Below, in pieces: positions 15,818-50,229 of a DNA stretch of 60,927 nucleotides. The notes below the pieces were generated by a model that searched no databases, was not told the origin of the DNA, and saw nothing but the letters and a program-made list of their open reading frames with translations. Source of the stretch: an uncultured Thomasclavelia sp. (GTDB taxonomy: Bacteria > Bacillota_I > Bacilli_A > Erysipelotrichales > Coprobacillaceae); NCBI RefSeq assembly GCF_944324745.1, contig NZ_CALUXO010000080.1, forward strand, positions 1 through 60,927. The letters run 5' to 3'. Each line of letters starts with the position of its first letter. The stretch's first letter is position 1. The position numbers and the translations under genes were made by a program.

Positions 15818-15964
15818 AATTTCAATGTAGTTATAGTGATAGATGATATTAGATTAAAGAATATATTGACTGCAAATGGGTTTTAAAATTTTATAAGATA
15901 GTTTTATTAAGATTATTCATTTTCTAGTAATACTTAAATTCTATATCTACTTTTTATTGTTGTA

Positions 15965-17179: not shown

Positions 17180-17702
17180 TAAATTATATTAGATATTTCT
17201 CAGATTAAATACGTTATTAAAGAGTTTTTTCTTTGAAATTTCAAGATTACATGTAGTTTCTAATTTTAAATTTCTAGTCATTGATAAAATTAGATTAATT
17301 GAAAATTGAATATTATTTTACAGATATCGATACAAATATTAGTCGATGTTGACATATTCCATGATTTGATCACTTTTATTATCTTTTAATTGTAGCTGAT
17401 TTTATTTATTTTGTATCGGCTAACTATATAGGTGATACAAAATGATTTCATATAGCTTATATTATGAAGTTTAAATATATAAATGCTGAAAATATCGATT
17501 TAGCAAGATATCCAAAAGATACTTTCTTATGGTTTGTTAAAACTGTATCATAGTTAAAAAAGTTATATTGAGGATAAGAAAAGTAAAAATTTAATAAAAC
17601 TTAAATAAGTCGTCAATAATATCTTAAAGTATCACACATAAAATATTTATATAACTTTAGTAAGTAAAGAAAAATTTTTATTTGTGAAAAGAAAGGGATA
17701 TT
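17180..17702. other. AT-rich stretch without a convincing gene
   Basis: About 520 bp of very AT-rich sequence with frequent stops in all frames. The only open stretch of note is a 29-codon frame at 17464-17553 (MKFKYINAEN start) with no ribosome binding site. It looks like a gene remnant. I see no RNA gene or repeat here. Confidence 0.5.
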
Positions 17703-22315: not shown

Positions 22316-22924
22316 ATGAAATTATATTTAATGCACTTTCAACCTTCATCTACGGTTTTAGGACCATATTTAAGAAGTATTATTTGGGTTCAAGGTTGTC
22401 TAAAAAATTGTCCTGGTTGTATTGCCACAGAGAGTCATGAAATCAAAAAAGATGGCGGAGTGGAAGTTAATACAGTATTAAATTGGCTCAATGAGTATCC
22501 TGATAATGAAGGAATAACAATTTCTGGTGGTGAACCTTTTTTACAGGCAAAGGCCTTAGTGGAGCTTGCTAGCGAAGTAAAAAGACAAGCTAAGGGAGTA
22601 ATTATTTATAGTGGCTATACTTATGATGAATTAGTTAATAAACATGATCAAGATATTAATAATTTATTAAAGCTGACTGATTTATTAATTGATGGACCCT
22701 TTATTGAACAACTAGATAATAATGAAGCTGGACGCGGTTCCACTAATCAAAATTTTATATTTCTAACCTCAAGATATAAAAAAGATAAAGCTTATTTTTT
22801 TCAAGAACGCCAAGCTAATATTTATATTGATGGTAATAAATATATTATGGAAGGGATCCCTAGTGAAGAAGATAAAATATTATATGAAGCAATTATAGGA
22901 GATTTAAACAATGGAAACAAATAG
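22316..22924 (+). CDS. Radical-SAM activating enzyme, NrdG-like
   Basis: 202 residues with the compact radical-SAM plan of glycyl-radical activases: WVQGCLKNCPGC supplies the CxxxCxxC 4Fe-4S ligands, ISGGEPF the SAM-binding segment, and LIDGPF with GRGSTNQNF the NrdG-like C-terminal signature. Such enzymes cleave S-adenosylmethionine to install a glycyl radical on a partner, normally anaerobic ribonucleotide reductase NrdD. No NrdD or other glycyl-radical enzyme lies in the window, so the target is unknown. It may be a distant chromosomal NrdD or a protein of this operon. It overlaps the next gene by 14 nt. Confidence 0.85.
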   Translation: MKLYLMHFQPSSTVLGPYLRSIIWVQGCLKNCPGCIATESHEIKKDGGVEVNTVLNWLNEYPDNEGITISGGEPFLQAKALVELASEVKRQAKGVIIYSGYTYDELVNKHDQDINNLLKLTDLLIDGPFIEQLDNNEAGRGSTNQNFIFLTSRYKKDKAYFFQERQANIYIDGNKYIMEGIPSEEDKILYEAIIGDLNNGNK

Positions 22925-26757: not shown

Positions 26758-26781
26758 TTTATCTTGAAGGGAGGAATACTG

Positions 26782-33701: not shown

Positions 33702-34904
33702 ATGGGAACATTAAATTATTTAGAAAAAGTACCACTGCAATCTGGTGGTGAGTGTGAAATTATTGATTATGTAAGTGAAGGTGGGCAGGGATATATTTAT
33801 GCCACAACTAATCGAAAAATGTTGAAGTGGTATAAAGAAGACTTCAAAAGTAGTCAAATAAAAAAGAATATTAAACAATTAGCAAGTGTTAAGTCCCCGT
33901 ACCCTAATCTTACTTGGCCCTTAATGATGACTCAAGATTATAAAGGTAGCTTTGGTTATATAATGAATCGGATTCCCAGTGGCTATGTACCACTAAATTA
34001 CTTTATTTTTGATGATAAATATAATTTAAATGTTGAAGAAATATTACAGGTTGGTTATGCCATAGCGGCTAGTTTTAATGCAATTCATAAACAAGGCTAT
34101 GTTTATCAAGATATTAATCCTGGTGGTATTTTTATTAATAAGCAATTAAAAAGTGTAATTATTTGTGATTTGGATAATTGCAATAAAGAAGGCGAGGAGT
34201 TTGTTGTAGGAACACCGATGTATATGGCACCTGAGCTGGTAACCAAGATGTCTAATGTCAACATAGATACGGATTATTATTCTTTAGCAGTTGTTTTATT
34301 TAGATTGTTTTATATTAATCACCCTCTAGAAGGGGAAAAGACCTGGTCAAAACCATTAGATGCTCAAGATGAAATTGAATATTTTGGCAAAAATCCAGTA
34401 TTTGTTTGTGATCCAATTAATCACTCTAATGGATTCTATCGGGATTGTACATTAGCCCTTGAAAAGCGGTGGCGTTGGTTTCCACCGATATTAAAAGACA
34501 CTTTTACTAAAGCGTTTACAACCGGTTTGAAAAATCCGAAACGAAGAATTGATGATGAAAAGTGGATGGAAGTAATTAAACAAAGCTATGATTGTTTTGT
34601 TAAAAAGAAATTTGATATGCAAATTAAAGAAGGATTCTTTTCACTAGAAACAATTAGCTATTTAAAAATCAATATTAATGGTCAAAAGACTTTGATTAGT
34701 GATTATAAAAAAATTTATGGTTATATTTTTGATCGTAATGAAATATTTACAACAGTTTTGTTTGAAAGTCATGAAAATAATGTAATTACTATCTGTAATG
34801 ATGAAGTAATTATTAATAATAGAAGAATGCAGAAAGGAGATAAACTAACTCTTAGGCGTGGTGATATCATTGAATATCATCAAATCAAAGGGATAGTTGA
34901 ATAG
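33702..34904 (+). CDS. Ser/Thr protein kinase of the TerY-P type
   Basis: ATG 33702 follows GGAGGG; an earlier in-frame ATG at 33654 lies inside the previous gene. Kinase features over residues ~15-290: glycine loop SEGGQGYIY, ATP Lys42 in MLKWY, catalytic loop YQDINPGG (Asp137, HRD changed to YQD, with Gly for the usual Asn), metal-binding Asp156 in CDLDN (in place of DFG), and GTPMYMAPE. The last ~90 residues are a strand-rich FHA-like region. Kinases with YQDIN loops are typical of the TerY kinase-phosphatase triads described in tellurite-resistance-type loci. The vWA protein and PP2C follow immediately. Confidence 0.85.
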   Translation: MGTLNYLEKVPLQSGGECEIIDYVSEGGQGYIYATTNRKMLKWYKEDFKSSQIKKNIKQLASVKSPYPNLTWPLMMTQDYKGSFGYIMNRIPSGYVPLNYFIFDDKYNLNVEEILQVGYAIAASFNAIHKQGYVYQDINPGGIFINKQLKSVIICDLDNCNKEGEEFVVGTPMYMAPELVTKMSNVNIDTDYYSLAVVLFRLFYINHPLEGEKTWSKPLDAQDEIEYFGKNPVFVCDPINHSNGFYRDCTLALEKRWRWFPPILKDTFTKAFTTGLKNPKRRIDDEKWMEVIKQSYDCFVKKKFDMQIKEGFFSLETISYLKININGQKTLISDYKKIYGYIFDRNEIFTTVLFESHENNVITICNDEVIINNRRMQKGDKLTLRRGDIIEYHQIKGIVE

Positions 34905-34908
34905 AAAA

Positions 34909-35649
34909 ATGGATGATAAATTTATCGATAATAATGATTTTATTAATAGTGCTAAGAAAAAAAGAATGTTGTTTATTTTAGTAGTGGATACATCAGCTTC
35001 AATGAAAAATAAAATTGAAATTGTCAATGATGCTATGAAAAGAAATATTACTAAAATGAAAGAACTTGATTTATCACATAATATTGCTAAGGTGGCAATC
35101 ACTATTTTAGAATTTGATAAAGATGTTCGCTGGATTCCTGAAAAACCACAAGAAATCAACAATTTTAATTTTATTGATATTGAGTGTAGTAATACCGGAC
35201 AAAGTAATTACAGCAAATTATACCAATCTTTAAATAATAAATTAAATAAAGAAGATTTATTAGAAAATGCCAGTGATTATCATCCAATAATCTTATTGAT
35301 CAGTGATGGTAAGCCAACCGATGAGTACGAAGACTATCTAAGTGAATGTGAAGAAAATGAATGGTTTCATCGGGCTACTAGAATTGCTTTGCCAATCATT
35401 ACCGAAAAAAACATGAACGAAGAGGAATATCGTGACTCAATTGATTATGAGTGTATTATGGATTTTACTGGTCAAAAAGAAGAAATGATTTTTATGATTT
35501 CTAATTTGGATAAATTAGCGGATATATTAGATATTGTTACTATTACAACAATTAAACATGAAAATAAAGAAAATGAAAATGATGATGATTTGAATTTGGA
35601 CGATCCATTTAATGATATAAGAAATAAAATTCTCAAAATTGAAATATGA
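34909..35649 (+). CDS. TerY-like von Willebrand factor A protein
   Basis: About 246 residues. The MIDAS metal site is present: D27-T-S-A-S31 after a hydrophobic strand (FILVVDTSAS), and ISDGKPTDEY near residue 130 supplying the later Asp/Thr. vWA domains bind a protein partner through the bound metal; in TerY-P triads this is the adaptor between kinase and phosphatase. The C-terminal tail is strongly acidic and contains DDDLNLDD. ATG 34909 lacks an ideal ribosome binding site; the TTG at 34897, overlapping the kinase gene, is an alternative. It overlaps the PP2C start (ATGA). Confidence 0.8.
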   Translation: MDDKFIDNNDFINSAKKKRMLFILVVDTSASMKNKIEIVNDAMKRNITKMKELDLSHNIAKVAITILEFDKDVRWIPEKPQEINNFNFIDIECSNTGQSNYSKLYQSLNNKLNKEDLLENASDYHPIILLISDGKPTDEYEDYLSECEENEWFHRATRIALPIITEKNMNEEEYRDSIDYECIMDFTGQKEEMIFMISNLDKLADILDIVTITTIKHENKENENDDDLNLDDPFNDIRNKILKIEI

Positions 35650-36374
35650 TGATTGATGTTTTTAGCTATCTTCACATAAAAAAGAAAAAATTACAACAAA
35701 AATTACCATGTGAAGATTATAGTATTACATATCAAGACGATGATAAAACCATTGCCATTATTAGTGATGGTCATGGAGATCGACGCTGTTTTAGAGCAAA
35801 TTATGGATCGAAGTTTGCTTGTTATGCCGCTTTAGAAATTTTAAAACCAATAAGTGATTTTTCTGATGATAATTTAAGAAATCTTTCCAATCAAATCTTA
35901 GATAGATGGCGCTACCAAGTAATGAAACACTATCATACTCAATCAAAGACAGATTATGATGACAACATTTATTTGATTTATGGAGCAACACTTTCAATTA
36001 TCATCTTAACCAATAATAAAATGATTTTAATGAATATTGGTGATAGCAAATGTATGGCTTTGTTTGAAAATAATCAGTTTGTATCTATGATAAAAAACAA
36101 ATCAATTACACCAAAATCATTAAGTGATCCTAAAATTAAAATGGATATTTATTTGGTTAGACAATTACCTAAAGCAATAATGTTTACTAGCGATGGTGGT
36201 AGTAGCTTTGAAGATGAAGGTGAATTTGTCAAAAAAGTAGAAAATTTGTATTTAACTGATCGTATTAAATTTCATAACAATATGTTAGGTTTAGTAGATT
36301 ATTTTTCTAGTGATGATGATGTTTCAATGATTTGGATTTATCGACAACCAGGGGGTGAAAATAGTGAAGGTTAA
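35646..36374 (+). CDS. PP2C-family Ser/Thr phosphatase
   Basis: 242 residues with all PP2C metal ligands in order: CED (Cys22-Glu23-Asp24), SDGHGD (Asp41), Y-G-A-T-L-S-I-I-I-L, MNIGDSK, MFTSDG and the terminal SSDDDVSMIWI. The domain fills the protein, and no signal or membrane segment is present. It should reverse phosphorylation by the kinase two genes upstream. The start overlaps the vWA stop by 4 nt and the end overlaps the next gene by 11 nt, so the three are translationally coupled. Confidence 0.9.
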   Translation: MMIDVFSYLHIKKKKLQQKLPCEDYSITYQDDDKTIAIISDGHGDRRCFRANYGSKFACYAALEILKPISDFSDDNLRNLSNQILDRWRYQVMKHYHTQSKTDYDDNIYLIYGATLSIIILTNNKMILMNIGDSKCMALFENNQFVSMIKNKSITPKSLSDPKIKMDIYLVRQLPKAIMFTSDGGSSFEDEGEFVKKVENLYLTDRIKFHNNMLGLVDYFSSDDDVSMIWIYRQPGGENSEG

Positions 36375-38118
36375 TCATAGTATTGAAGGATTAAATAAAT
36401 TGCAAGATAATATTAATACTTGTAGTAAAAAAGCTAACGAACAGTTACAAACAGAAATCGAGATTCGTAATGAAGTTGTTAGTACCATTAGAAAACAATA
36501 TCAACACTCTTATCAACAACTTGAAAAGCAATTGGAGTTAGAAGAAAAAGATTTCGATTCCCTTAAACGAACTTATGAAGAAATTGAAAAGCAGATGGAT
36601 GCCATATTGAAAGAAAAGTTTGAACAGGAAGAAATGAATGCAGTCAAAACGCAATGCATTGAAGAGTATAAACAAGAATTGTTAAAATATTATGATTTAA
36701 ATAACAAAAAAGATAAATTATATTATCAAAAAACAATTGATAGTTATTCTAAACGAATTAAACAGGCTCAAAAGCCATTTGAATGTGATAAAAATTTAAA
36801 GGTTATCCAAGAATGTCGTCGAGCTTTACAAATTAGTGATGAAGATAGTTATATTGAAAATAACGAAGATATCAAAAAAGCTCAGGCAATTTTAAAAAAT
36901 CGCATAGAACAAATTGGAATGGATTTAAAACAATCATTGCAATTGGAAAATGATGTAAAAATTCCCGGACTAACAATTGGAAAAATATTTGTTAGTAATG
37001 AATATTTAAAAGAATGGTATTATCAAGATATTTTATTAGAAGTATTAAATGGTAAATATGAAAAGAATTGTTTGAAAATGATGTTTAATGATGAATTAAA
37101 TGATTACGTTATAATTGCTGGCAGTAAACACGGACAGGCAATGTTACAGCTATTAGAATTTAGTACGATGTTAGATAGTACGAAAGAGGCTATTCATATT
37201 TATTATGACTATCAAACAATGCCAACTTTATTTACGGTTCCTGGATATGATAATTGTCAACCAGTTACTATTAATGATGATTTTGTTTTACAGTTACAAA
37301 AAGAAATTAATGAATATCCTGATCAGATGATTTCGATATTTATAGAAAATGGTCGTAATTTAACACCTGCTTTTAAACAATTTATGGTAGATAAACCCGA
37401 TAATATTCAAATAGTAGTTTGTCAGCCTAATCCAGATGATACAAAATTATATGAAAATTATATTCGATTAAAACATTATCAACCAAATGGGGGAATTGAA
37501 TGTTTTGTGATTAATGGAAAATATGATTTGTATTTAAATCGGATCAATGAAAAGGGAATCAATAGATTACAAAATAGTCACCCTGTACCGATTGTTAAGG
37601 TTAATAATTTTGAACAATTCTATCAAGATAATTTAAATCAAAATAAATATTTAATCAATAATGAGTATAGTATATCTTTTGATGATAATTTAATTGTTGT
37701 GTCTAAAGATGAAGCTAAAAGAAGATTATATTTAGCGCAGTTGTTGTTACCAAGATTAAACCAGCAGGAAATAAAATATGTTTATTATGAAGATTACAGT
37801 GATACAATATTAAGAAGAATTATTGATCAAAATAATTTTGAAGAAATCATGCCTGATATGATTGAATCAATGATGGATGATTTATTAAAAGATGATAGTT
37901 TAGTAGTTTTATTTGATCCTACGCAAGAAGTATTAGGATTTATCGAAACAATCTTGGATATGGGCCATATAATTATGACTAGTGAAGAAGTTATTGAGGG
38001 TTATAAAAACTTAATTTTGGATGATAATGCGATTGAAGAAAACGGACAAAAACAACAAGTAGAATATAAGTTTTTATCAAGTGAGTGTTTAAATAAGCTG
38101 ATGGAAAATAAAGAGTAA
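36364..38118 (+). CDS. Coiled coil fused to degenerate ATPase-like domains
   Basis: GTG 36364 follows GGGGGTG by 7 nt. Residues ~1-205 are coiled coil. The remaining ~380 residues are alpha/beta, with a strand and loop Y-V-I-I-A-G-S-K-H-G-Q-A at about residue 250 in the place of a P-loop but without Lys-Thr, and a second set of strands (NLIVVSKDEAKRR) near 435. This resembles the EssC D2/D3 or FtsK fold with lost nucleotide sites, but the similarity is structural guesswork. Probably a scaffold or regulator associated with the kinase triad. Confidence 0.6.
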   Translation: MKVNHSIEGLNKLQDNINTCSKKANEQLQTEIEIRNEVVSTIRKQYQHSYQQLEKQLELEEKDFDSLKRTYEEIEKQMDAILKEKFEQEEMNAVKTQCIEEYKQELLKYYDLNNKKDKLYYQKTIDSYSKRIKQAQKPFECDKNLKVIQECRRALQISDEDSYIENNEDIKKAQAILKNRIEQIGMDLKQSLQLENDVKIPGLTIGKIFVSNEYLKEWYYQDILLEVLNGKYEKNCLKMMFNDELNDYVIIAGSKHGQAMLQLLEFSTMLDSTKEAIHIYYDYQTMPTLFTVPGYDNCQPVTINDDFVLQLQKEINEYPDQMISIFIENGRNLTPAFKQFMVDKPDNIQIVVCQPNPDDTKLYENYIRLKHYQPNGGIECFVINGKYDLYLNRINEKGINRLQNSHPVPIVKVNNFEQFYQDNLNQNKYLINNEYSISFDDNLIVVSKDEAKRRLYLAQLLLPRLNQQEIKYVYYEDYSDTILRRIIDQNNFEEIMPDMIESMMDDLLKDDSLVVLFDPTQEVLGFIETILDMGHIIMTSEEVIEGYKNLILDDNAIEENGQKQQVEYKFLSSECLNKLMENKE

Positions 38119-38133: not shown

Positions 38134-40683
38134 ATGGCATTTTTAGTTGGAATCAATATGAAAAGCGATAATACTATCTGTCTAGTACATTCAAAAGTTT
38201 ATAGCTTTAAGCATCCTGAAATATTATCATCATTTTTACATGATAAGGATGCAAAAATATTATGGTATAGTAATGATTTATCTGCTTATCAAAAAAATCT
38301 GATCGATAAAAATTATCATTATTCAATTAAAAATAGCCAGCTAAGTCCTTTGGATATTACGACGATAATATTAAGTGATATTTATAAAAAAATAAAAAGT
38401 ATATTGGTAACTAAAGATGCTATTAATGCTGTTATCGCAGTTCCAGCAATTTTTCCAACGCAAGCTACTAAAATCTTAGTCGACAGTGCTAAACGAGCCG
38501 GATTTAAAGAGGTAAAAACAATTAAAGAGCCGATGGCAATTTTGATTCAATATTTTAATCGTGTGGCATTTTATAAACAAAATGGAGTTTTTGTCACTGT
38601 ATCTCTTAGTGATAACTATTTAGATATTGGAGTTATTGAAGTAACTGATAATAAGTATCAAACATTATATGTTGGTGGTGCACTGTCATTAGGTGGTAGT
38701 GATTTTACTAATGTTATTATCAAAATGATTGAAGATGAAATCTTAAATAATGAGTTATATGGTTGTTTAGATTTATCATGTCAAAAAATTGAAGAAAATA
38801 GTAGTTTAAAAAAAGTGTTTTTATCTAATGAAAGATATCAGTTAGTAAAACAACAAATAATGTGGGCGGCCAAACGGACTTTAATTAATCTGTATCAAAA
38901 TTCTAAAGCTACGATTAGTTTGCCAGATTTATATCAACTGGCAGAAAAATCAATTGATTTAAAGATGGAAATCACACTTGAAGATTTTAAAATGAACGCT
39001 GGACCTATGTTATATCGCTATAAACAAGTATTGCTTCAGGCTTGTCAGGCTATTGATGAGAAAAAGAAAATTGTTAGAGTGATTGCTTCAGGTGACTCAA
39101 TAATTCTTTCAATGCTAAAAAATATTATCTATGATGTTTTTAAGCAAGAGCCTTATTCTTATAGCTATATGCAAGAAATAGCTAATGGAGCGCTTCTTTG
39201 GGCTGAACAAGCTAATGTGATTAGGCTTATTAATAAATTACCGTATCATATTGGAATAGATTATGGAGATACTATGCGCCCATTAATTGAAAAAGGAAGT
39301 ACTTATCCTCCCAAAATAAGCGAAACTAGATATTATGCTAAATTAAATCAAGAACAAACGAGCATCTCCTTTAGTATTTATGAAGGAAATATTTTAAATA
39401 ATTTAAGTGACAGTCGCAATTATCTGCTAGATAGCTTTAAAATTAGTGATTTGCAGCCTTTATCAAGTGATCAAGCAGCAGTTAGCTTAACGCTTAGTAT
39501 TGATGAGGATGGAATTTTACATATTGATGCTCAAGATTTATATGATAATACTAATGCATATCATAATATTAAAGAAAAAGTTGAAATTAACAATACCTAT
39601 GTTATGACTTTTGGAATGAACCGTAATTTAATTGGAAAGATTGAAAATAATCAATTTAAACCAGTAAGGTACAATAGTTTAATTAATTATGGTGATCATT
39701 CAGCGGAGTTTTATAGTCGAATCAAAATTACTACTCATAGTGTTGTTGTCGGTAATGGGGCTAAAAACACTGATGAGGGAATCTATATTGATGATGTAGG
39801 AGATGTTTTTAAAAATTATAATTATTGTCTATATAACTTAAATAATGGAATATATCGGGTTCATGATGTTATTAAACAGTATTTTGCATATATTAAAAAG
39901 GAGCTTGTTGTTCATCAAGATGTTGATAAACCAATGGTACTAGTAGTACCATATAATTATACAGTAAAAGAGAAAAAAGAGTTATTGGATATTTTATTAT
40001 CACTTTCATATCAAGTAAGGCAATTAGTTGAAGAACCAGTAGCGGGCTATTTAGGCTATTTAAACCAGATAAATCAGGATATTAAAGATCAAGACTATAT
40101 TATGTTTATTAAGATTGAAGATAAATTAGTTCAAGTTAGTATCTTTAATGTATCTTATCAAAATTCAACAGTAGTGTTTAATCTTATAAATAAGGTGGAA
40201 AAAAAGGATTTTGATTTTGTTAATTTATTAAGAACCTATTTTGTAAATGTGATGAATATTGCGGATTATTCTAAACTGTCTAATGCAGATAAGGAATCAT
40301 TAGATAATGCAATTAATGATTTGATTATTGATTTTAAAAATAGAAAAAATAATCGTTCGACATTGTATATTGGTCTATTAGATGCTGAAGTAGAATATGA
40401 AGCGGAGTTTTCTAAAGTAGAGTTTAATAAGCTATTGGAAGATATGGGAATTTTTAAAGATATTGATAATATTATTATGGATATTTTAAAGCAAAGCTCT
40501 CAAGTACCACAAATTGATCATTTGATTTATGTTGGTAATGTTAGCACAGTATTTGGTATTCAAGAAAAAATAAATAGTTATTTAAATATTGATCAAAAAA
40601 TCATGATCAATGTAAATGAAATGCTTTGTTTAGGTGGTGCTTTAGGAAGTACGATTGAATATAAAATCAATAGCAGCGAATAA
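38134..40683 (+). CDS. Head-to-tail double Hsp70-like protein with lost ATP motifs
   Basis: 849 residues in two actin/Hsp70-like halves. Half 1 (~1-480): NBD-like, with VPAIFPTQA and KRAGFKEVKTIKEP matching the operon's active Hsp70s, followed by an Hsp70-type beta substrate domain (IGIDYGDTMRPLIEKGSTYPP). Its phosphate loops are degraded: GINMKSDNT for DLGTTNS, SLSDNYLDIG for DLGGGTTDIS, and ASGDSIIL for GGSMNLP. Half 2 (~490-849) is closely similar to the gene at 42998 (YVMTFGMNRNLIGKI, FYSRIKIT, YVGNVSTVFGIQEKIN) and also lacks canonical loops. It probably binds partners rather than cycling with ATP. Confidence 0.8.
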   Translation: MAFLVGINMKSDNTICLVHSKVYSFKHPEILSSFLHDKDAKILWYSNDLSAYQKNLIDKNYHYSIKNSQLSPLDITTIILSDIYKKIKSILVTKDAINAVIAVPAIFPTQATKILVDSAKRAGFKEVKTIKEPMAILIQYFNRVAFYKQNGVFVTVSLSDNYLDIGVIEVTDNKYQTLYVGGALSLGGSDFTNVIIKMIEDEILNNELYGCLDLSCQKIEENSSLKKVFLSNERYQLVKQQIMWAAKRTLINLYQNSKATISLPDLYQLAEKSIDLKMEITLEDFKMNAGPMLYRYKQVLLQACQAIDEKKKIVRVIASGDSIILSMLKNIIYDVFKQEPYSYSYMQEIANGALLWAEQANVIRLINKLPYHIGIDYGDTMRPLIEKGSTYPPKISETRYYAKLNQEQTSISFSIYEGNILNNLSDSRNYLLDSFKISDLQPLSSDQAAVSLTLSIDEDGILHIDAQDLYDNTNAYHNIKEKVEINNTYVMTFGMNRNLIGKIENNQFKPVRYNSLINYGDHSAEFYSRIKITTHSVVVGNGAKNTDEGIYIDDVGDVFKNYNYCLYNLNNGIYRVHDVIKQYFAYIKKELVVHQDVDKPMVLVVPYNYTVKEKKELLDILLSLSYQVRQLVEEPVAGYLGYLNQINQDIKDQDYIMFIKIEDKLVQVSIFNVSYQNSTVVFNLINKVEKKDFDFVNLLRTYFVNVMNIADYSKLSNADKESLDNAINDLIIDFKNRKNNRSTLYIGLLDAEVEYEAEFSKVEFNKLLEDMGIFKDIDNIIMDILKQSSQVPQIDHLIYVGNVSTVFGIQEKINSYLNIDQKIMINVNEMLCLGGALGSTIEYKINSSE

Positions 40684-40725
40684 ACTTATTGATAAATGGT
40701 AATTAAAAATAAGGAGGGAGAGTAA

Positions 40726-42309
40726 ATGTGTTTTTTTGAAGAAGAGGGTAATGAGGCAATTGGAATTGATTTAGGAACAAGAAATTCGGTTGTCGTAAAA
40801 TTTAATAGTAAAGGGGATTATACGTTTCTAGAAGAACATGGTCGACAGGTAATAAAGTCGGCACTATATTTTAATTCACCAAATGATATCTTGTTTGGAG
40901 AACGCGCTGAAGCTAGGGGACTATTACATCCTAAATCATTGCTAAGATGTTTTAAAAGAGGCTTGACAGGTGATACTGGGAAATTGGTTGCTGGGCGTTA
41001 TCAAATTGAATGTGCCGATGGAACAAAATTATTATTGACTCCTAAAGAAGTCAGCAGTAATTTTTTAAGAAATTTAATTGATCGTTTCAATGACCAAAAT
41101 GGTTGTAATGTTCGTAAACTAGTATTAACAGTTCCAGCAAAATTTGGGTATTCTTTATGTGCTGCTTTACGTCAAGCAGGAATTCTAGATGTGGGAATGG
41201 ATGATGTTTTAATCGTTCAAGAGCCTGTAGCAGCAGCTATTTGTTATGACTTTGAAGTAGAAACAATTCCTAATAATTCGTCACTATTAGTTTATGATTT
41301 AGGGGCTGGTACATTTGATGTTTCCTTGTTGAAAAGAAAAGAAGATGGTACTTTAGAGTTTACCGATACTAATGGTGATGTTCATTTAGGTGGTGAAGAT
41401 TTTACTGAAAAGGTATTTATTGATGGAAAGAATTATTTCTTTGATAATGAATTCTTTGATCTAGATGATAAAAACAATTTTGATAGTGAAGAAGAGTATG
41501 CTAAAAATATTGAGGTTTTAAGAGATGTTGCTGAAAAGGCAAAAGAGGAATTATCATTATATACTCAATGTGATAAACCAGTAACTTTCAGACAACATGG
41601 AAATAAAGTCGATTATAATTGGATTATTACCAAAAATCAATTTGATGCGATGATTGTTAGTTATATTAATCGTTCTATTGAAAAAATCGATGTGTTGTTG
41701 AAACGAAATAATATGACAAAAGATGATGTAGATCGTATTTTGGTTGTTGGTGGGAGTTCATTAATTCCACTGGTTGATAAAAAACTGAAGGATTATTTTG
41801 GCGGTGATGATAAAATCGTCAAGAATTCCGATAAGGAATTAATGATTGGTAAAGGAGCAGCCATTATCGCAAATCAAATTTTTCAAGAGGAATCGGATAC
41901 TTTAAGAGATGCGATTAGTTTTTCTGGGATGATTCAAAAAATTTCCGATACAATTGGTGTCGCAGTTGGAAGTTCAAGCAATGTCAAAGAAATAATTCCT
42001 CGTGGGTCAAAAGTTCCTCTCAGTATTACTTTAAATTATGAGTTAAGTCAGTTAGTCAATAACGATAATTGTATTGATATTTCATTTCATAGTTATGATG
42101 ATATTGAAATGAAAAATAAGATCGTTGTTGCTCATGATTCTAATGTTGAATACATTGGAAAATATATTAGCTCTAATGTTGCTGGTTATCATGAAAATGA
42201 TCCGGTTAAAATCAAAGTTTCAATCAATAATGAATTTATAATTAAAGTAGATGTAGAGGTGGCTGGCAATCAATTAAATAGTGGTACAGTAAGAAGGGAT
42301 GGTATGTAA
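40726..42309 (+). CDS. Hsp70/DnaK-family chaperone (divergent)
   Basis: 527 residues. Hsp70 nucleotide motifs: GIDLGTRNS (Arg for the usual Thr), YDLGAGTFDVS, and VVGGSSLIPLV as the adenosine loop, so ATP binding is likely kept. It then has a beta-type substrate-binding region with IIPRGSKVP, and ends without the helical lid of DnaK. The N-terminus has an extra acidic patch (MCFFEEEGNE). The stop overlaps the start of the next, possibly GrpE-like, gene by one base. AAGGAGGGAG precedes ATG 40726. A 42-nt gap separates it from the double Hsp70. Confidence 0.85.
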   Translation: MCFFEEEGNEAIGIDLGTRNSVVVKFNSKGDYTFLEEHGRQVIKSALYFNSPNDILFGERAEARGLLHPKSLLRCFKRGLTGDTGKLVAGRYQIECADGTKLLLTPKEVSSNFLRNLIDRFNDQNGCNVRKLVLTVPAKFGYSLCAALRQAGILDVGMDDVLIVQEPVAAAICYDFEVETIPNNSSLLVYDLGAGTFDVSLLKRKEDGTLEFTDTNGDVHLGGEDFTEKVFIDGKNYFFDNEFFDLDDKNNFDSEEEYAKNIEVLRDVAEKAKEELSLYTQCDKPVTFRQHGNKVDYNWIITKNQFDAMIVSYINRSIEKIDVLLKRNNMTKDDVDRILVVGGSSLIPLVDKKLKDYFGGDDKIVKNSDKELMIGKGAAIIANQIFQEESDTLRDAISFSGMIQKISDTIGVAVGSSSNVKEIIPRGSKVPLSITLNYELSQLVNNDNCIDISFHSYDDIEMKNKIVVAHDSNVEYIGKYISSNVAGYHENDPVKIKVSINNEFIIKVDVEVAGNQLNSGTVRRDGM

Positions 42310-42995
42310 TGTTATTGGAACATGAAAAAATTAAAAAGATAATTAATGAAGGTAATGAGTTATATAAACAGTATCTATCGTTAAATACATATCAATTTAA
42401 AGAAAATTCTTTAGAGTATTTTTTCATCCCGAAAAATAAGGATATTTTAAATGGTGATATTGAAACAGTTAAAAATTATCATCAATATACATTAACACTG
42501 CTTCAGGATTTAATTAAAGAATTGGATAAGATTAATGATAAAGAAGGAATTGCCAATCGGGTAAAAGAGCGGATGCAAAGGGTTTATGATAAAATTGCAA
42601 CAAAGAAAATTGTTAAGCCGACTTTTAGTAAGTTTGATATTCAAAAATATTTTAACGAGGTCACCAAAGAGATTATTGAAGCCTATATTGATTATCTTGA
42701 TTATTTGCAATCACAAATTGAACAGAAAAATAAAACAGCAGTTAATATTGTTGAAATGTTAAATTCTTTTTTACAAAGAATTAATATTTACTCAGTTACA
42801 TGCAATGATGGTGATGATTGGGATGAATTAAAATTTGAACCAGAAATTAATGTAATTGATAATATTACCGATGATAAAAATAAAATCGATACTATTCATA
42901 AAGTATATCGATATTGTTATTTGATTGATTATAATTCTTTGGGAAATTCATTCGTTTTATACCCAGGTAAAACTAGTATTTGGAAAGGAAGGTAA
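42309..42995 (+). CDS. Helical protein, possible GrpE-like exchange factor
   Basis: 228 residues. About 1-155 are amphipathic helices. The last ~75 have the order of a GrpE beta domain: LNSFLQRINIYSV, an acidic stretch with F-E-P, then I-H-K-V-Y-R-Y-C-Y-L and a final strand FVLYPGKTSIW. These sit where GrpE has the 'FDP', 'V-x-Q-x-G-Y' and 'R-P-A-x-V' segments. It overlaps the upstream Hsp70 gene by one base, the expected position for a dedicated nucleotide-exchange factor. The match is weak in sequence; a purely structural role is equally possible. Confidence 0.5.
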   Translation: MLLEHEKIKKIINEGNELYKQYLSLNTYQFKENSLEYFFIPKNKDILNGDIETVKNYHQYTLTLLQDLIKELDKINDKEGIANRVKERMQRVYDKIATKKIVKPTFSKFDIQKYFNEVTKEIIEAYIDYLDYLQSQIEQKNKTAVNIVEMLNSFLQRINIYSVTCNDGDDWDELKFEPEINVIDNITDDKNKIDTIHKVYRYCYLIDYNSLGNSFVLYPGKTSIWKGR

Positions 42996-42997
42996 AT

Positions 42998-44431
42998 ATG
43001 GGAAAATATGCAATGACTTTCGGAAGCGCTTTTAATTTAATTGGTGAGTTAGATGGGAATCAATTTAAACCTAAAAAGTATAATACTCTAATTAAATACG
43101 GTGATGCTTCTGCTAGATTCTATAGTCGAATTAAAATTACTGATAAAGATACTGTAGTAGGTAATAGTGCTACTGGTAATAGTCAAGATGAAATATATAT
43201 CAATAATGTTGGACAAGCTTTTAAAGATGATATTGATAAAACTTACCAAATTAATAATAAAAAATATACTATGAAAGATATTGTAAAAGAATATTTTATG
43301 TATATCAAAAAAGAATTAGATAATCATCAACAAAATGATCCAATAGATTCAATGACACTAATTGTGCCTTATGAATATTCGGAAACGCGAAAACAAGAAT
43401 TAAAAAATATTCTTAAATCCATTTCATTTAGAGTTGATCAAATATTAGAAGAACCAATTGCCAGTTATTTAGGTTATCTAAAACATACGAATCAAGAAAT
43501 AAAACATAAAGATAGTTTTATGTTGATTGGAATTGAAGATGATAATATTAAAGTTAAAATTTTTGATATTGAGTATAAAAAATCACAATTGATCTTTAAA
43601 TTAGATGGAAGTTCTTTTGACACCTCTTTTAGCTTCTTTGATACTTTAAGAAAATATTTTTTAGAAGTTATGGATGTTGATGTCAGCTATGATAAATTGA
43701 CAGCCACTGACCAAGATTTATTGGATACGGGAATTAATGATTTACTTAAAGATTTTGATAGTCGAAAAAATGATAGTGCTAATTTATATATTGGTTTGTC
43801 AGATATTGGAGCTGAATATGATAATGATTTTTCTAAAGATATGATCATTGAATTATTTGAAAAAACTGGAATCATAAAAAGTATTTATCAAACAATTGAT
43901 GAATGTATTGATCAAAGTCGTAAAACTAGAAGTGATATCAATAAAATTATTTATACTGGTAATATTAGTACTATTTTTGGAATTCAGGAAAAAATTAATC
44001 GGGACTTTAATTTAAACCAGGACTTGATGTTAGATATTGATGAATTAACTTGTTTAGGTGGTGTCAGCAACAATAACTTAACTTACAAAATTGAAGATCA
44101 CTTAAAACAAATTGGAATTGGGGTATCTAAAAAAGTTAGATTTTTACGAACTGTTACTACTTTTAAAACCATGATTCCATCATATTCAAGTATTAAAGCC
44201 CAAAGTTTAAAAATTAAAATACCTGCATCTTTTAAAGGAAAGCTAGGAATATATGAAGGTTATAATGGAGCAATGATTGGAGATTGTACGTTACTAAAAA
44301 ATATCGATCTTTCTGGATATAATGATGGTAATCATTTGTTTGCATTAGAAAGAAAAGCTAGTGGCGGTAGTGTTACATTACTCATTTATAATAAAGAAGG
44401 TTCGATAGTAAAAGAATTCAATATCTTATAG
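42998..44431 (+). CDS. Hsp70/actin-like protein with degenerate nucleotide site and C-terminal beta domain
   Basis: ATG 42998 has AAAGGAAGG just upstream; TTG 42980 overlaps the previous gene. Residues ~1-365 match the second half of the 849-residue protein at 38134 (same openings YAMTFG, FYSRIKIT, and TGNISTIFGIQEKIN near the end). Phosphate-binding loops are not canonical. Residues ~370-477 form an extra strand-rich domain (SLKIKIPASF, LGIYEGYNGAMIGD), comparable in position to an Hsp70 substrate domain. It is probably a non-cycling chaperone-like subunit that pairs with the active Hsp70s. Confidence 0.7.
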   Translation: MGKYAMTFGSAFNLIGELDGNQFKPKKYNTLIKYGDASARFYSRIKITDKDTVVGNSATGNSQDEIYINNVGQAFKDDIDKTYQINNKKYTMKDIVKEYFMYIKKELDNHQQNDPIDSMTLIVPYEYSETRKQELKNILKSISFRVDQILEEPIASYLGYLKHTNQEIKHKDSFMLIGIEDDNIKVKIFDIEYKKSQLIFKLDGSSFDTSFSFFDTLRKYFLEVMDVDVSYDKLTATDQDLLDTGINDLLKDFDSRKNDSANLYIGLSDIGAEYDNDFSKDMIIELFEKTGIIKSIYQTIDECIDQSRKTRSDINKIIYTGNISTIFGIQEKINRDFNLNQDLMLDIDELTCLGGVSNNNLTYKIEDHLKQIGIGVSKKVRFLRTVTTFKTMIPSYSSIKAQSLKIKIPASFKGKLGIYEGYNGAMIGDCTLLKNIDLSGYNDGNHLFALERKASGGSVTLLIYNKEGSIVKEFNIL

Positions 44432-44442
44432 GAGGGGAAAAG

Positions 44443-45444
44443 ATGCAATTTTATGAATTAGAAGTAAATGATGTTAATGAAATTATGCGCATAGTAAATA
44501 ATATAATTTCTAAACCTCAGGCAATAACATATTTAGAAGGAAATTTTTCAAATAACACTATTAATTATATAATAAAGCGTTTCAATCAGTGTTTAGCAGT
44601 GACTGAAAATAATATTTGGATATATTATAATGGGCCGTACTTTTATTATTGTGGGGAAAAAACCATTAGACAAGTAATAAAAAAATTAAGTGATAATAAT
44701 ACAAGTCAAAACAGTTCTCATGAAATTGAGAATAAATTAAATGCTATTGAGCAAAAATTAGAAAATATTCAAACTAAGCATGAAACAACTAATTATAATG
44801 GGTTGTTATCAAATATTTTGAAACCATCAAATGAATCATTAAAAAATATTTCAAAAAAAATTGATTCTTTAAATAATATGATTACTTTTCAATTTAATAG
44901 AAGTAATAATAATGATGTAACCAAAGATTTATCTGATATTATTGATAAGATTACAGATTTAAATAAACAATTAGGTTTTATTGAAGATGATTTAAAAGCC
45001 CAAAAAGATTTATTACGATCAATTCGTAATCAAGGTGAAGATGATATTGATAGCAGTAAACAAATAACTAGAAGTATTAATAATATTTTAGGAACGGTTA
45101 CGTTATTAAAAAATGATATTGAAAATATCAAAGTTAGTCCAGAAGAAGTTTCAAAAGATACAAAAGAGGAAGAAGTGGAAATTATAAATCCAGATGTTGC
45201 ATTGTTAAAAGAAATGCATCAAACAGCAACTAAATTAAATGATCTAATTTTAAAAACTGCCTTAATGGTTGCTAAAAAAGGGGAAGCAACTGATGACGTT
45301 GAAGATAGTCGTGAAAATTTAAATGATCAATCAGATGAAAATACTGAATCAAAAGATAATCAAGATAAAACTAATCAAGAGACGATTAATGATGATATGG
45401 AAGATGCCAATAATCGAATTATTATTGAGGAATTAAAAGATTAG
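44443..45444 (+). CDS. Coiled-coil protein with acidic tail
   Basis: 333 residues. About 1-85 form a small alpha/beta domain (YLEGNFSNNTINYIIKRF, IWIYYNGPYFYYCGE). About 95-245 is a long heptad coiled coil. The last ~55 residues are strongly acidic (Glu, Asp, Asn and Gln). Acidic ends also occur on the nuclease, the vWA protein and the microprotein that follows. No recognised family. AGGAGGGG ahead of ATG 44443. Confidence 0.65.
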   Translation: MQFYELEVNDVNEIMRIVNNIISKPQAITYLEGNFSNNTINYIIKRFNQCLAVTENNIWIYYNGPYFYYCGEKTIRQVIKKLSDNNTSQNSSHEIENKLNAIEQKLENIQTKHETTNYNGLLSNILKPSNESLKNISKKIDSLNNMITFQFNRSNNNDVTKDLSDIIDKITDLNKQLGFIEDDLKAQKDLLRSIRNQGEDDIDSSKQITRSINNILGTVTLLKNDIENIKVSPEEVSKDTKEEEVEIINPDVALLKEMHQTATKLNDLILKTALMVAKKGEATDDVEDSRENLNDQSDENTESKDNQDKTNQETINDDMEDANNRIIIEELKD

Positions 45445-45459
45445 TTAAAGAGGAATAAT

Positions 45460-45564
45460 ATGGATGAATTTAGTGATGATATGATGGCAGCTGAACAAAC
45501 GGAGCAACGTGGCAACATGGAAGATGATTTGAATTTAGAAACTGATAACGAATATGGAATGTAA
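45460..45564 (+). CDS. 34-residue acidic microprotein
   Basis: A short frame with its own AAAGAGGA 5 nt before ATG 45460, filling the gap between two larger genes and ending one base before the next in-frame ATG. The product is very acidic, Met-rich and almost without hydrophobic residues (begins MDEFSDDMMAAEQ). It contains EDDLNLE, similar to DDDLNLDD in the tail of the vWA protein. Size, coupling and good spacing support a real gene. It could be a docking or inhibitor peptide for one of the chaperones or enzymes. Confidence 0.55.
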   Translation: MDEFSDDMMAAEQTEQRGNMEDDLNLETDNEYGM

Positions 45565-45579
45565 ATGGAGGGGAAGATT

Positions 45580-47145
45580 ATGTCAATTTTAGTCGGAATT
45601 GATTTAGGGACAACTAATAGTGCCTGTGCAATTTATGAAAATAAACAATTACAATATATTAATTTTGATGGGTCAGAAATATTACCATCTTGTTTATATG
45701 AAGATGATAAAGTTTTATTGATTGGAAAAAAGGCAAAATCAAGAGGATTGTTGCATCCAGAAAATTATGTCGCTTCAGCTAAACGATATATGGATGATCG
45801 AAATTATCGTTTTAATGTAAATGGTAAAACTTACAGTCCTGAAGATGTAGCAACTGAAGTTTTGAAAAGAATTTATAATGAAATTAAGGAACAAACTGGA
45901 GAAAGTGATATTAGTGCTGTAATTACGATACCGGCTATTTTTAGGGACTATGCTATTGAAGCGACGATCAGAGCAGGACGTCGAGCTGGATTTAAAGATG
46001 TAAAAACTTTAAAAGAACCTATTTCATCTGTTATTGCTAATGGAATTGAAGAAAAAGCCGATGGTAATTATATGGTTATTGATTTAGGTGGGGGAACAAC
46101 AGATATTTCAATTGTTACTGTAAAAGGTAATGATTATTATACTGCTAGTGTTGGTGGTGATGATAAATTAGGTGGTGATGATTTTACTAATGTCATCGTT
46201 AAGATGATTGAAGATGAAATCCTAAATGAAGAAAGATATGGTCATTTAGATGTTTCTTATGATAGTATTGCTCAAAATCCACTTTTACAAAGTATTTTTC
46301 CATCTAATGAAAAATATCGACAAATGAAACAAAAGATACTTAATGCTGCTGAAAAAGCAAAGCAAGCTTTGAGTTACGAATCCCAAACAGTAATTGATTT
46401 ACCAGATATTTATAAAATTAATGGTGATACAATTTCTTTGTCGATGACAATTACGAGATCAGATTTTGAAAAAAGTGCTAGCCGATTATTCAATCGTTTC
46501 CAGGAAACAATTGAAGATGCGCTAAAAAGCGTAAAAAGAGAAGAAAATATTGATAAAAAGGATATTAATAGAATTGTTTTTGCCGGAGGCTCAATGAATT
46601 TGCCAAAGGCCAAAGAAATTATAAAAAAAATGTTTACACAAGAGCCATTAGATAAAGATTTAGATAAAATTGTGGCCGCTGGTGCTGCAATTTGGGCTGT
46701 TGTTGCCTTTGATGAAAATAAAAAAGGTACGGGAACTAAAGAGGTTGATATCAATCTAAAAAATAAACTTCCTTACAATTTAGGTGTTGATTTATTTGAT
46801 GGCAGCTTTAGTCCTATTATTGAACAAGGAACTACATACCCACCAGAAGTCAAGAAAACAAGACCATATACAACAATTCGTGATGATCAAACAACGATTG
46901 TTTTTAATGTTTATGAGGGAAATGAATTATCTAATGCTAAAGATCCTGCTAATAAAAAAATATACCATTTTGAAATAAGTGGATTAAGACCAATGCCAGC
47001 AGGTAAAGCGAAAGTTGATGTCACATTTACTTTAAATGAAGAAGGTATGTTGTATATTCATGCTGAGGATTTAGATGGTGTTGCGCCACCATACGACAAT
47101 CGTGATAATCCAGTTAATTGGAATGCTGAAAGGAAAACAAAGTAA
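45580..47145 (+). CDS. Hsp70-family chaperone without lid (A)
   Basis: ATG 45580 follows GGAGGGGAAG; an in-frame ATG at 45565 is part of that site's surroundings. 521 residues with intact Hsp70 motifs: GIDLGTTNS, IDLGGGTTDIS and FAGGSMNLP. A beta substrate-binding domain begins at about residue 395 (YNLGVDLFDGSFSPIIEQGTTYPP). The chain stops soon after (PVNWNAERKTK), so the helical lid of DnaK is missing. It should bind ATP and clients with fast exchange. Part of a tandem of three similar Hsp70 genes and closest to the third. Confidence 0.9.
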   Translation: MSILVGIDLGTTNSACAIYENKQLQYINFDGSEILPSCLYEDDKVLLIGKKAKSRGLLHPENYVASAKRYMDDRNYRFNVNGKTYSPEDVATEVLKRIYNEIKEQTGESDISAVITIPAIFRDYAIEATIRAGRRAGFKDVKTLKEPISSVIANGIEEKADGNYMVIDLGGGTTDISIVTVKGNDYYTASVGGDDKLGGDDFTNVIVKMIEDEILNEERYGHLDVSYDSIAQNPLLQSIFPSNEKYRQMKQKILNAAEKAKQALSYESQTVIDLPDIYKINGDTISLSMTITRSDFEKSASRLFNRFQETIEDALKSVKREENIDKKDINRIVFAGGSMNLPKAKEIIKKMFTQEPLDKDLDKIVAAGAAIWAVVAFDENKKGTGTKEVDINLKNKLPYNLGVDLFDGSFSPIIEQGTTYPPEVKKTRPYTTIRDDQTTIVFNVYEGNELSNAKDPANKKIYHFEISGLRPMPAGKAKVDVTFTLNEEGMLYIHAEDLDGVAPPYDNRDNPVNWNAERKTK

Positions 47146-47147
47146 AA

Positions 47148-48653
47148 ATGAAAAAGATAGGAATTGATTTAGGAACAACTAATACAGTTGTAACTATTAA
47201 TGATAATGATCAAATCAAAATTGTACCAATTGATAACGATAACTTATTACCATCAGTTTTTTACTATAATGAAAAAAGAAAAATCAAACTAGTAGGTAAA
47301 CGGGCCAAAAATCGCGGTTTAATGGATCCAGATAATTATATTAAATCTACCAAGCGTTCAATAGATTCACCAGAAAAAAAATTTACAGCTTCTAATAAAA
47401 CATTTAGCAGTGAAGATGTTGCGGTTGAAATTCTATTAAAAGTTAAAGAAGCTATCTATCAATACTTAGGACATGAAGAGGAATTAGAAGCAGTAATTAC
47501 AGTACCTAATAACTTTACAACTAGTGCCGTCGAAAACACTAAAAGTGCTGGTATTCGAGCAGGCTTTTCTAAGGTTGAAACTTTAAAAGAACCGATAGCA
47601 TCAGTTTTAGCTTATGGTGAAGAGATTAGACCCGATAATCATGCCATCTATTTTGTCTGTGATTTTGGTGGTGGAACCCTAGATATTGCTGTAATTAGAT
47701 ATGATGGTAATGAATATGAAGTTATTGCTACTGGAGGTAATGAAAAACTTGGTGGTGATGATTTTACTAATGCCATGATTAATTATCTTAATAATCAAAT
47801 AATGGAAAAAGAAGCCTTAGATTATTCACTAGATTCAATTGAAGATAATGTTTTATTAAAAACAGTTTATGATAGTAATGTAACTTATCAAAGAACGAAA
47901 GCCAAAATTGCCCAAAAAGCTGAGGCAGCTAAGGTAGCTTTAAGCTATGAAACAAGTGTTAATGTGGCTATAGGCGAATTATGTGTTAAAAATGATCAAT
48001 CAGTTACTTTCGAATGTGCTGTTACAAGTGAAGATTTTAACCAGTATTCTGAAGTGAAACGGTTATGGCGTGATTATAAAGAAGCAATCGAAGAAGTAAT
48101 TGAAAAATTGAAAAGAGAAGATATTGAAGTTAGTGATATTAATCATGTTATTTTTGTTGGAGGTTCAATGAATTTACCTGAGGCTAAAAGAATTGTTCAA
48201 GAATTAATACCAGCCAATATTTTAGAAGATAATTTAGATACGATCGTTGCTATTGGAGCAAGTAGTAAAATGACCACTACTAAACAAATTACTCCAAGAG
48301 TAAATTTCAATTTGGGATTAAAAGTAGAGGGGGATAAAATCTCGGTAATTATTCCAGAACAATCAAAATATCCTATTGAGGCTTCTAAAATATATACTAC
48401 GCTTGAAGATAATCAAACGATGATTTCTTTTGAAGTATATGAAGGAAATATTGTAGATGATGTATATGATAAAAAGAATCATTGGTTAGGTAAATTAGAT
48501 TTAAGTGGTATTGAAATGAAAGAAGCAGGAGAGCCACAAATTAAAGTTACTTTTTCTTTAAATCAGGAAGGTATTTTGAAAATTACTGCTTTAGATTTAT
48601 CTAATAATCACCAAGTTGATACCGAATTGAATTGGCAAGAATTAAAATATTAA
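47148..48653 (+). CDS. Hsp70-family chaperone without lid (B)
   Basis: 501 residues, starting 2 nt after the previous stop with no strong ribosome binding site, so translation is probably coupled. Nucleotide motifs are GIDLGTTNT, CDFGGGTLDIA and FVGGSMNLP; all functional residues look intact. The substrate domain is shorter and more divergent than in its two neighbours (NLGLKVEGDKISVIIPEQSKYP), and the C-terminus ends in LNWQELKY without a lid. It probably shares the machinery with copies A and C but binds different clients. Confidence 0.9.
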   Translation: MKKIGIDLGTTNTVVTINDNDQIKIVPIDNDNLLPSVFYYNEKRKIKLVGKRAKNRGLMDPDNYIKSTKRSIDSPEKKFTASNKTFSSEDVAVEILLKVKEAIYQYLGHEEELEAVITVPNNFTTSAVENTKSAGIRAGFSKVETLKEPIASVLAYGEEIRPDNHAIYFVCDFGGGTLDIAVIRYDGNEYEVIATGGNEKLGGDDFTNAMINYLNNQIMEKEALDYSLDSIEDNVLLKTVYDSNVTYQRTKAKIAQKAEAAKVALSYETSVNVAIGELCVKNDQSVTFECAVTSEDFNQYSEVKRLWRDYKEAIEEVIEKLKREDIEVSDINHVIFVGGSMNLPEAKRIVQELIPANILEDNLDTIVAIGASSKMTTTKQITPRVNFNLGLKVEGDKISVIIPEQSKYPIEASKIYTTLEDNQTMISFEVYEGNIVDDVYDKKNHWLGKLDLSGIEMKEAGEPQIKVTFSLNQEGILKITALDLSNNHQVDTELNWQELKY

Positions 48654-48669
48654 ATTGGAGGAATAATTT

Positions 48670-50229
48670 ATGGCCATTACAGTAGGAATTGATTTAGGGA
48701 CAACTAATAGTGCGTGTGCTATTTATAAAGATCGCCAATTACAATATATTAAATTTGATCATCTAGAAATACTACCATCATGTTTATATGACGATGGTAA
48801 AAGTTTATTGATTGGTAAAAGAGCTAAAGCCCGGGGATTAATTCATCCCGAATATTATATAGCATCAGCTAAACGAAAAATGGGAGAAAGTAATTATTAT
48901 TTTAAAGCTGGTAATAAAGAATATAGCCCCGAAGATGTCGCAACTGAAGTTTTAAAAAGAATTTATAATGAAATTAAGGAACAAACTGGAGAAAGTGATA
49001 TTAGCGCTATAGTTACAATTCCCGCTAATTTTAGAGATTATGCCTTAAATGCAACTAAACGAGCTGGCAGAAGAGCTGGTTTTAAAAATGTTAGAACATT
49101 AAAAGAACCCATTTCTTCCGCTATTGCTAATGGTATTGGTGATAATGAAACTAATGGAAAATATATAGTTATTGACTTAGGTGGTGGTACATTAGATCTT
49201 TCAGTTGTTTCTGTCAATAAATATAAATTTAGAGTACTGTATACTGGTGGTAATCCAGACTTAGGCGGTGATGATTTTACCGATGTCATTATTAAAATAA
49301 TCGAAGATGAAATCTTAAATAATGAACAATACGGTTATTTGGATGTATCTTATGATAATATTGATGCTAGTCCAGTTTTACAAAATATATTTAAAAGTAA
49401 TGAAGAGTATTTAAAATTAAAATCAAAAATTGCAGATCATGCTGAAAAAGCTAAGATTGCTTTAAGTTATGAACAAACTACTTACATCGATATTCCAAAG
49501 CTATACAATAGAAATGGAAATGATATCAGTTTTTCGATGGAATTATCAAGACAGCGATTTGAACAAAAAGCGCAAAGATTATTTAATCATTTTCAAGATA
49601 GTATAGAGGATGCATTAAAAGCTATTCAAAGAACTGAAAATTTGACGATTGATGATATTGATAAAGTGATTTTTGCCGGTGGATCAATGAATCTTCCTAA
49701 AGTAAAGGAAATAGTCTATAATTTTTTAAAAAAAGAACCTTTGGATAAAGATTTAGATAAAATTGTGGCCGCTGGTGCCGCTATCTTTGCCTATTCAAAA
49801 TTTGAGGATGAAGGAGATTTTGATAAAACCGGGACAAAAGAAAAATTAGAAGTTTCTGATATGCTATACTATAATTTAGGAATTCTTGTTAATAGTGGTG
49901 AATTAAGTCCGATTATTGAAAAAGGAAGCATGCATCCACCAGCTATCGAAAAAACACGTGCTTATTATACACCAACCGATTATTGTACTAGTCTTCATAT
50001 TGCAATTTATGAAGGAAATGTTTTATCAAACGCTAAAGATCCTGCTAATAAATTACTTTATGAGTTTAATATTAATGGCTTAGCAAGTAAACCGGCTGGT
50101 AAAGTAAGAGTTGATGTAACCTTTAGGTTAGATGAAGAAGGAATTTTACATGTTCGTGCTGAAGATGTTGATGGCATAGCTAAACCGTATGATAGTGATG
50201 TTAATTGGAATGAATTAAAAAAACAGTAG
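48670..50229 (+). CDS. Hsp70-family chaperone without lid (C)
   Basis: 519 residues with TGGAGG ahead of ATG 48670. Motifs: GIDLGTTNS, IDLGGGTLDLS, FAGGSMNLP, and a substrate domain from about 400 (YNLGILVNSGELSPIIEKGSMHPP). It ends VNWNELKKQ with no lid. It is closely related to copy A: 50 bp at 48955-49004 are identical to 45865-45914, and 35 bp at 49744-49778 to 46651-46685. This indicates recent duplication or gene conversion. Confidence 0.9.
   Translation: MAITVGIDLGTTNSACAIYKDRQLQYIKFDHLEILPSCLYDDGKSLLIGKRAKARGLIHPEYYIASAKRKMGESNYYFKAGNKEYSPEDVATEVLKRIYNEIKEQTGESDISAIVTIPANFRDYALNATKRAGRRAGFKNVRTLKEPISSAIANGIGDNETNGKYIVIDLGGGTLDLSVVSVNKYKFRVLYTGGNPDLGGDDFTDVIIKIIEDEILNNEQYGYLDVSYDNIDASPVLQNIFKSNEEYLKLKSKIADHAEKAKIALSYEQTTYIDIPKLYNRNGNDISFSMELSRQRFEQKAQRLFNHFQDSIEDALKAIQRTENLTIDDIDKVIFAGGSMNLPKVKEIVYNFLKKEPLDKDLDKIVAAGAAIFAYSKFEDEGDFDKTGTKEKLEVSDMLYYNLGILVNSGELSPIIEKGSMHPPAIEKTRAYYTPTDYCTSLHIAIYEGNVLSNAKDPANKLLYEFNINGLASKPAGKVRVDVTFRLDEEGILHVRAEDVDGIAKPYDSDVNWNELKKQ

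Follow-up and report, generated by a model that had tools for sequence, protein, structure and literature searches.

Ssz1, part of the fungal Ssz1-Ssb-Zuo1 system (the ribosome-associated complex, RAC), is a lidless Hsp70 that has little or no hydrolysis and binds an active Hsp70 (PMC8476630). Hsp70s also occur in conflict systems: GAP1-N2/DO-GTPase operons carry an Hsp70 with a second, truncated Hsp70, or kinase, PP2C and von Willebrand factor A (VWA) genes (PMC7159879, Kaur et al. 2020), and CoCoNuT systems bring together the nucleotide-binding domain (NBD) and substrate-binding domain (SBD) of the Hsp70 CnuD, a VWA/PP2C/kinase triad (TerY-P), EssC and WXG100 (PMC11090510). Here we describe six genes on a 60,927-nucleotide stretch of DNA from an uncultured Thomasclavelia sp. 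(NZ_CALUXO010000080.1, contig C80 of a 2.76 Mb genome; hereafter the window) that encode seven Hsp70-type NBDs, four of them active and three of them dead. The gene content and the retention or loss of motifs, which we read directly, suggest that the products work as one dedicated machine and not in ordinary protein folding, and the locus appears to be a variant of the Hsp70-bearing conflict systems already known.

By analogy, Ssz1 appears to be the best precedent, as a lidless, low- or no-hydrolysis Hsp70 that serves as a platform with an active one. However, ATP binding is preserved in Ssz1, which also has a J partner; in the present set the dead members have no ATP motifs left, lids are missing from the active members as well, and no J protein is encoded alongside. 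The GAP1-N2/DO-GTPase systems share with our locus the operon context of nucleoside triphosphate-dependent conflict systems (PMC7159879), but they have GrpE and often a DnaJ fusion and our locus has six Hsp70-fold genes. CoCoNuT has the Hsp70 NBD/SBD, the kinase/VWA/PP2C triad, EssC and WXG100 in common with the window, but CnuD comes as one gene, or fused to another, and the set described here consists of multiple paralogues. The six genes lie on the plus strand in the following order:

38134-39585, + strand: N-terminal unit of the 38134 protein, a degenerate Hsp70 (NBD plus SBD-beta) that has lost its ATP motifs; 39% amino acid identity to 45580
39586-40683, + strand: C-terminal unit of the 38134 protein, a second dead NBD with no SBD and no ATP motifs; 47% amino acid identity to 42998
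40726-42309, + strand: lidless Hsp70 with intact catalytic residues, divergent in T12R, GAG in phosphate-2 and SBD-beta (motif alignment, Pfam)
42998-44431, + strand: dead Hsp70, an NBD without ATP motifs plus an SBD-beta-like tail (Pfam, PDB relatives, hhalign, Foldseek)
45580-47145, + strand: lidless Hsp70 with intact catalytic residues (Pfam, motif alignment)
47148-48653, + strand: lidless Hsp70 with intact catalytic residues; 59% identical orthologue in a second genus (G021, below)
48670-50229, + strand: lidless Hsp70 with intact catalytic residues; 62% identical to 45580

All six are intact open reading frames (ORFs), and Pfam HSP70 (PF00012) matches every one of them at 25-280 bits against a curated cut-off of 20.6, with E-values of 3.6e-83 for 45580, 2.5e-76 for 48670, 7.1e-71 for 47148, 2.8e-55 for 40726, 4.1e-34 for 38134 and 5.4e-06 for 42998. 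An earlier note on this DNA had claimed six Hsp70-fold genes, four of them with ATP motifs and ending after SBD-beta and two sharing the fold without those motifs, and had proposed aligning the NBD motifs with DnaK; our alignment bears out these assignments and separates four intact NBDs from three dead ones. Residues are numbered as in E. coli DnaK, and the DnaKs compared include both DnaKs of the window genome. D8, T11, K70, E171, D194, T199 and D201 are present in 40726, 45580, 47148 and 48670, as are E267, K270 and the GG of the adenosine site, so that the complete catalytic residues of a canonical DnaK are found in these four proteins and not in 38134 or 42998. In 40726, T12 is replaced by R and GGG by GAG, and its SBD-beta is more divergent than in the other three. 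These three extend ~20-30 residues beyond SBD-beta, versus ~140 in the DnaK of the same genome, and 45580 and 48670 end in a short C-terminal tail such as PYD..VNWNE.K.

In DnaK, residues R151, R167 and N170 and the interdomain linker serve J docking and allosteric coupling. Every DnaK compared has R151, R167, N170 and the linker aspartate, and the linker itself varies only in minor ways. The active members share with DnaK/DnaJ/GrpE the NBD catalytic residues and SBD-beta, but the rest of the canonical combination (J-docking site, VLLLD linker, proline switch and lid, with a linked J protein or GrpE) is missing or eroded: the proline-switch arginine R151 and the J-docking N170 are absent from all four, R167 is absent from three, and the VLLLD linker is unrecognizable throughout. 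48670 retains R167 and D393, and an aspartate can be aligned at the linker end of 40726 and 48670 in one of two alignments. With J-docking residues, switch arginine and VLLLD linker largely lost, the active members are unlikely to engage in J-driven folding. No J domain was found in the window. The only two found in the genome (PF00226) lie elsewhere, one adjoining DnaK on C37 and the other adjoining a second DnaK on C46, and GrpE was found on C37 only. The earlier note's statement that no J-domain protein accompanies the set is thus correct, and its view that the set does not serve general folding gains support from the loss of features that all DnaKs compared have kept.

The dead members are more elaborate than that note had supposed. 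Its count of two dead proteins stands, but it missed that 38134 is a fusion of two dead Hsp70 units (residues 1-484 and 485-849), and because of this fusion three of the seven Hsp70-type NBDs are dead. The first unit carries D8N, T12D, K70Q, D194S and T199Y, has lost the GGG loop, and retains E171 and D201 among the listed catalytic residues; in the second unit, as in 42998, E171 is the sole one left. Of all the units at the locus, only this second one has no SBD-beta. The first unit groups with the 45580/48670 clade on a long branch (tree support 95/97). In a profile comparison by hhalign, the dead family and the active set could be aligned across 366 columns (probability 97.3, E 1.8e-11), and the strongest PDB sequence relatives of the dead family are Hsp70s. 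Structure prediction, which the earlier note had also proposed, yielded low-confidence AlphaFold2 (AF2) monomers of 42998 and 42309, and we draw no pocket claim from either (mean predicted local distance difference test, pLDDT, ~53 and 56). Foldseek hits to the 42998 model were topped exclusively by Hsp70s (E 3e-13), with a TM score of 0.28 that indicates local agreement only.

Active and inactive members recur together in G021, a member of another genus in the family Erysipelotrichaceae that is represented by a fragmented metagenome-assembled genome (MAG) with inferred contig joins. At 37-63% identity, this genome directly shows two dead and three lidless members along with the same neighbors (kinase, VWA, PP2C, 587-residue protein, AAA+ and VirD4-like), and on the contigs read (C9, C155, C151, C70 and C19) gene order follows the window where readable: VirD4-like, radical-SAM, coiled coils, triple AAA+, transglutaminase-like, kinase, VWA, PP2C and a 574-residue protein; then an orthologue of 40726 (55% identical), a counterpart of 42309, a dead NBD with SBD-beta and a standalone dead NBD; and finally a coiled coil, a 109-residue Hsp70 deletion remnant and two lidless Hsp70s. 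The standalone dead NBD (371 residues) is the counterpart of the C-terminal unit of 38134. In the remnant (L038:4669-4998) the middle is deleted and the N-terminus is joined to the C-terminal tail. The G021 dead versions also lack the ATP motifs, with single residues aligning as kept (D8 in one, D194 in another). The ratio of third- to second-codon-position differences is 1.5-2.2 for the dead genes and 2.1-2.4 for the active ones, and this excess of third-position change would fit dead proteins that are retained. Maintenance of an active and inactive set in a second genus is as expected for a functional assembly, to judge from the sequences. Among 43 genomes of the family, the dead family was found in G021 only; class- and phylum-level samples of 316-392 genomes yielded no further members, and scans of contigs and viruses, a search of plasmids for relatives of 42998, and genome sampling at each rank (400 at most) again returned only G021. 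The set is likely to be rare, these searches being samples.

The six genes belong to a single co-directional run of ~32 kb (18610-50493), closed by a DUF3781 gene, in which gaps are at most 42 nucleotides except for one of 135 nucleotides, the sole gap above 100, and this gap contains a 34-residue ORF. The other features of the run are:

18610-19236, + strand: NS endonuclease with a strongly acidic tail, in the candidate effector slot (Endonuclea_NS_2, 9.1e-19)
19257-20618, + strand: VirD4/TrwB-like coupling ATPase (TrwB_AAD_bind, 8.9e-42)
26764-30270, + strand: triple AAA+ (CbxX/SpoVK-like) ATPase with three Walker A motifs (AAA, 4.4e-27; motifs read)
33702-34904, + strand: Ser/Thr protein kinase, start placed after the preceding gene (Pkinase, 6.8e-15)
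34897-35649, + strand: TerY-like VWA protein (VWA_2, 5.1e-06)
35646-36374, + strand: PP2C phosphatase (PP2C_2, 6.9e-18)
36355-38118, + strand: 587-residue protein with a helical N-terminus and unknown fold, conserved in G021
42309-42995, + strand: 228-residue helical protein with a beta-rich C-terminus, its start overlapping the stop of 40726; no family match
44443-45444, + strand: coiled-coil protein with an acidic tail; positional counterpart at L038:5013-5879
45460-45564, + strand: acidic 34-residue ORF after a ribosome-binding-site-like sequence, filling the 135-nucleotide gap

Among the module proteins compared, the VirD4-like ATPase shows the strongest conservation (76% to G021); the neighborhoods of its relatives on plasmids contained no annotated Hsp70. 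The adjoining kinase, TerY-like VWA and PP2C genes (33702-36374) constitute a TerY-P triad, and the zinc-ribbon or OB tail described for the TerY-P kinase (PMC11090510) had no Pfam match in the window kinase. Within the operon also lies a radical-SAM activase-like gene of the NrdG/PFL-activase family (22316-22924; 65% to its G021 counterpart). A degenerate P-loop considered for 36355 and 20630 found no support in two-sequence profiles. The C-terminus of 42309 had, on visual inspection, hinted at a GrpE-like exchange factor, but this idea was rejected when hhalign, an unfiltered search with a GrpE profile, and Foldseek on the low-confidence model all came back empty.

Unrelated proteins occupy the slot before the VirD4-like gene in the two genomes: the window has an NS endonuclease there, and G021 has an HExxH-containing protein (L121:1231-2271). 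Their acidic tails carry net charges of -20 and -24, respectively, over 50 residues. When the slot before a VirD4/HerA-like ATPase was compared at three loci (the third at L040:10356-10862), strongly acidic tails were seen in two. A DO-GTPase/GAP1 locus in G022 (L040:4969-8824; L086:10213-11886) has three short Hsp70s, one with a C-terminal VWA fusion, as well as an NS endonuclease by a HerA-like ATPase and transglutaminase-like genes.

In the model that we envision, the products of the six genes form the chaperone layer of a machine dedicated to one task in the cytoplasm. Each of the four lidless members would switch slowly with ATP, independently of J proteins, and would hold in its open beta groove a peptide from one fixed partner. 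The two dead proteins, with their three dead NBDs fixed in one conformation, could be docking platforms, a part that yeast Ssz1 plays toward Ssb. Two further components, the triple AAA+ ATPase and the kinase/VWA/PP2C triad, might set and reset the complex, which most likely would hold or present the 18610 effector (a nuclease here, another protein in G021) together with the VirD4-like ATPase. Complex formation, J-independence, the client and a role in conflict or effector gating are our inferences, as is the fixed hetero-oligomer suggested by the earlier note. A fixed chaperone-type assembly fits better than folding because the J site is eroded, the lid is absent and the dead members are conserved. 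We tentatively favor, while holding it to be somewhat less than probable, a machine of chaperone type that serves conflict or effector handling, with the dead Hsp70s as its fixed platforms. We give somewhat less weight to the more specific possibility of a bacterial Hsp70 hetero-complex in which several lidless ATPases and obligate pseudo-ATPases, among them a dead Hsp70 with two heads, make up a J-free effector-gating switch.

Other explanations of the Hsp70 set must be considered, among them that it provides secretion chaperones for the neighboring type VII secretion system (T7SS) and feeds substrates to its EssC-like ATPase. Upstream on the same strand are the EssC-like 9643, small WXG100-like proteins (7317, 7991 and others) and a T7SS-like toxin candidate. 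The latter (4375-5942) has a helical N-terminus, a hydrophobic middle and an HH-containing C-terminus, and is followed by a possible immunity gene. Each module was nevertheless observed directly without the other. G021 has the Hsp70/AAA+/VirD4 module with a different, unrelated gene directly before the VirD4-like gene and no EssC match. The T7SS segment (6341-17942) is 99.97% identical over 11,602 bases to the whole of a contig (L088) from G004, another genus in the family, in which no match to the dead-Hsp70 or AAA+ proteins was found; G004 is a fragmented assembly and the contig could be misbinned, so that the identity reflects either recent transfer or misbinning. Co-occurrence of the set with EssC and WXG100 was not seen across these two genomes, both fragmented, and a published survey of T7SS variants (PMC11217815) does not mention Hsp70. 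Because each module occurs without the other, the T7SS genes look separable and the Hsp70 set does not appear tied to them, and we regard a secretion chaperone role as unlikely. We are equally doubtful that the six proteins assemble into an actin-like hetero-filament or ring whose ATP-bound subunits are capped or seeded by dead NBDs. Hsp70 NBDs share the actin fold, the operon has many paralogues and coiled-coil partners, and MreB-type profiles match weakly, but SBD-beta is kept in all units save one and the PDB relatives are Hsp70s, not filament actins.

Somewhat less credible is a role as RNA-binding adaptors of the CnuD type seen in CoCoNuT, which would target a restriction effector for RNA or DNA. 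CnuD too has degenerate ATP motifs, and its systems likewise include the kinase/VWA/PP2C triad and EssC/WXG100 extensions (PMC11090510), but the active members here keep full catalytic motifs, and the window genes scanned gave no match to a McrB-type GTPase, McrC/CnuC or the HEPN family. Ordinary chaperones served in trans by housekeeping J proteins and GrpE would be compatible with the intact catalytic residues and with the DnaJ, second J protein and GrpE of the genome; the missing lid and the erosion of docking residues, switch arginine and linker in all four active members make this very improbable. Least plausible of all is that the dead members are decaying duplicates without function: they have long tree branches and diverge faster than the active members, but their ORFs are intact and preceded by purine-rich sequences, and dead versions with an excess of third-position change are kept in the second genus.

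Several observations weigh against the chaperone-type machine that we favor. DO-GTPase and GAP1, the marks of the published Hsp70 conflict system, had no match among the window genes scanned with a library that detects the G022 locus. The effector link is drawn from gene order in two genomes. The AF2 models are of low confidence, both that of 42998 (mean pLDDT 53.5) and that used as the Foldseek query for 42309 (mean pLDDT 56). Finally, the set is present in only two of the genomes searched, one of them a fragmented MAG.

Beyond what the earlier note contained, our analysis adds the loss of J-docking residues, proline-switch arginine and linker from the active members, the double dead unit of 38134, and the VirD4-like/AAA+/kinase module. 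Most known cases in which an active Hsp70 is paired with a dead one come from eukaryotes, as in Ssz1/Ssb and Hsp110/Hsp70. If our interpretation is right, the three dead and four active NBDs of this bacterial locus show Hsp70 reused as a dedicated assembly switch, and the compact operon would make the contribution of pseudo-Hsp70s testable.

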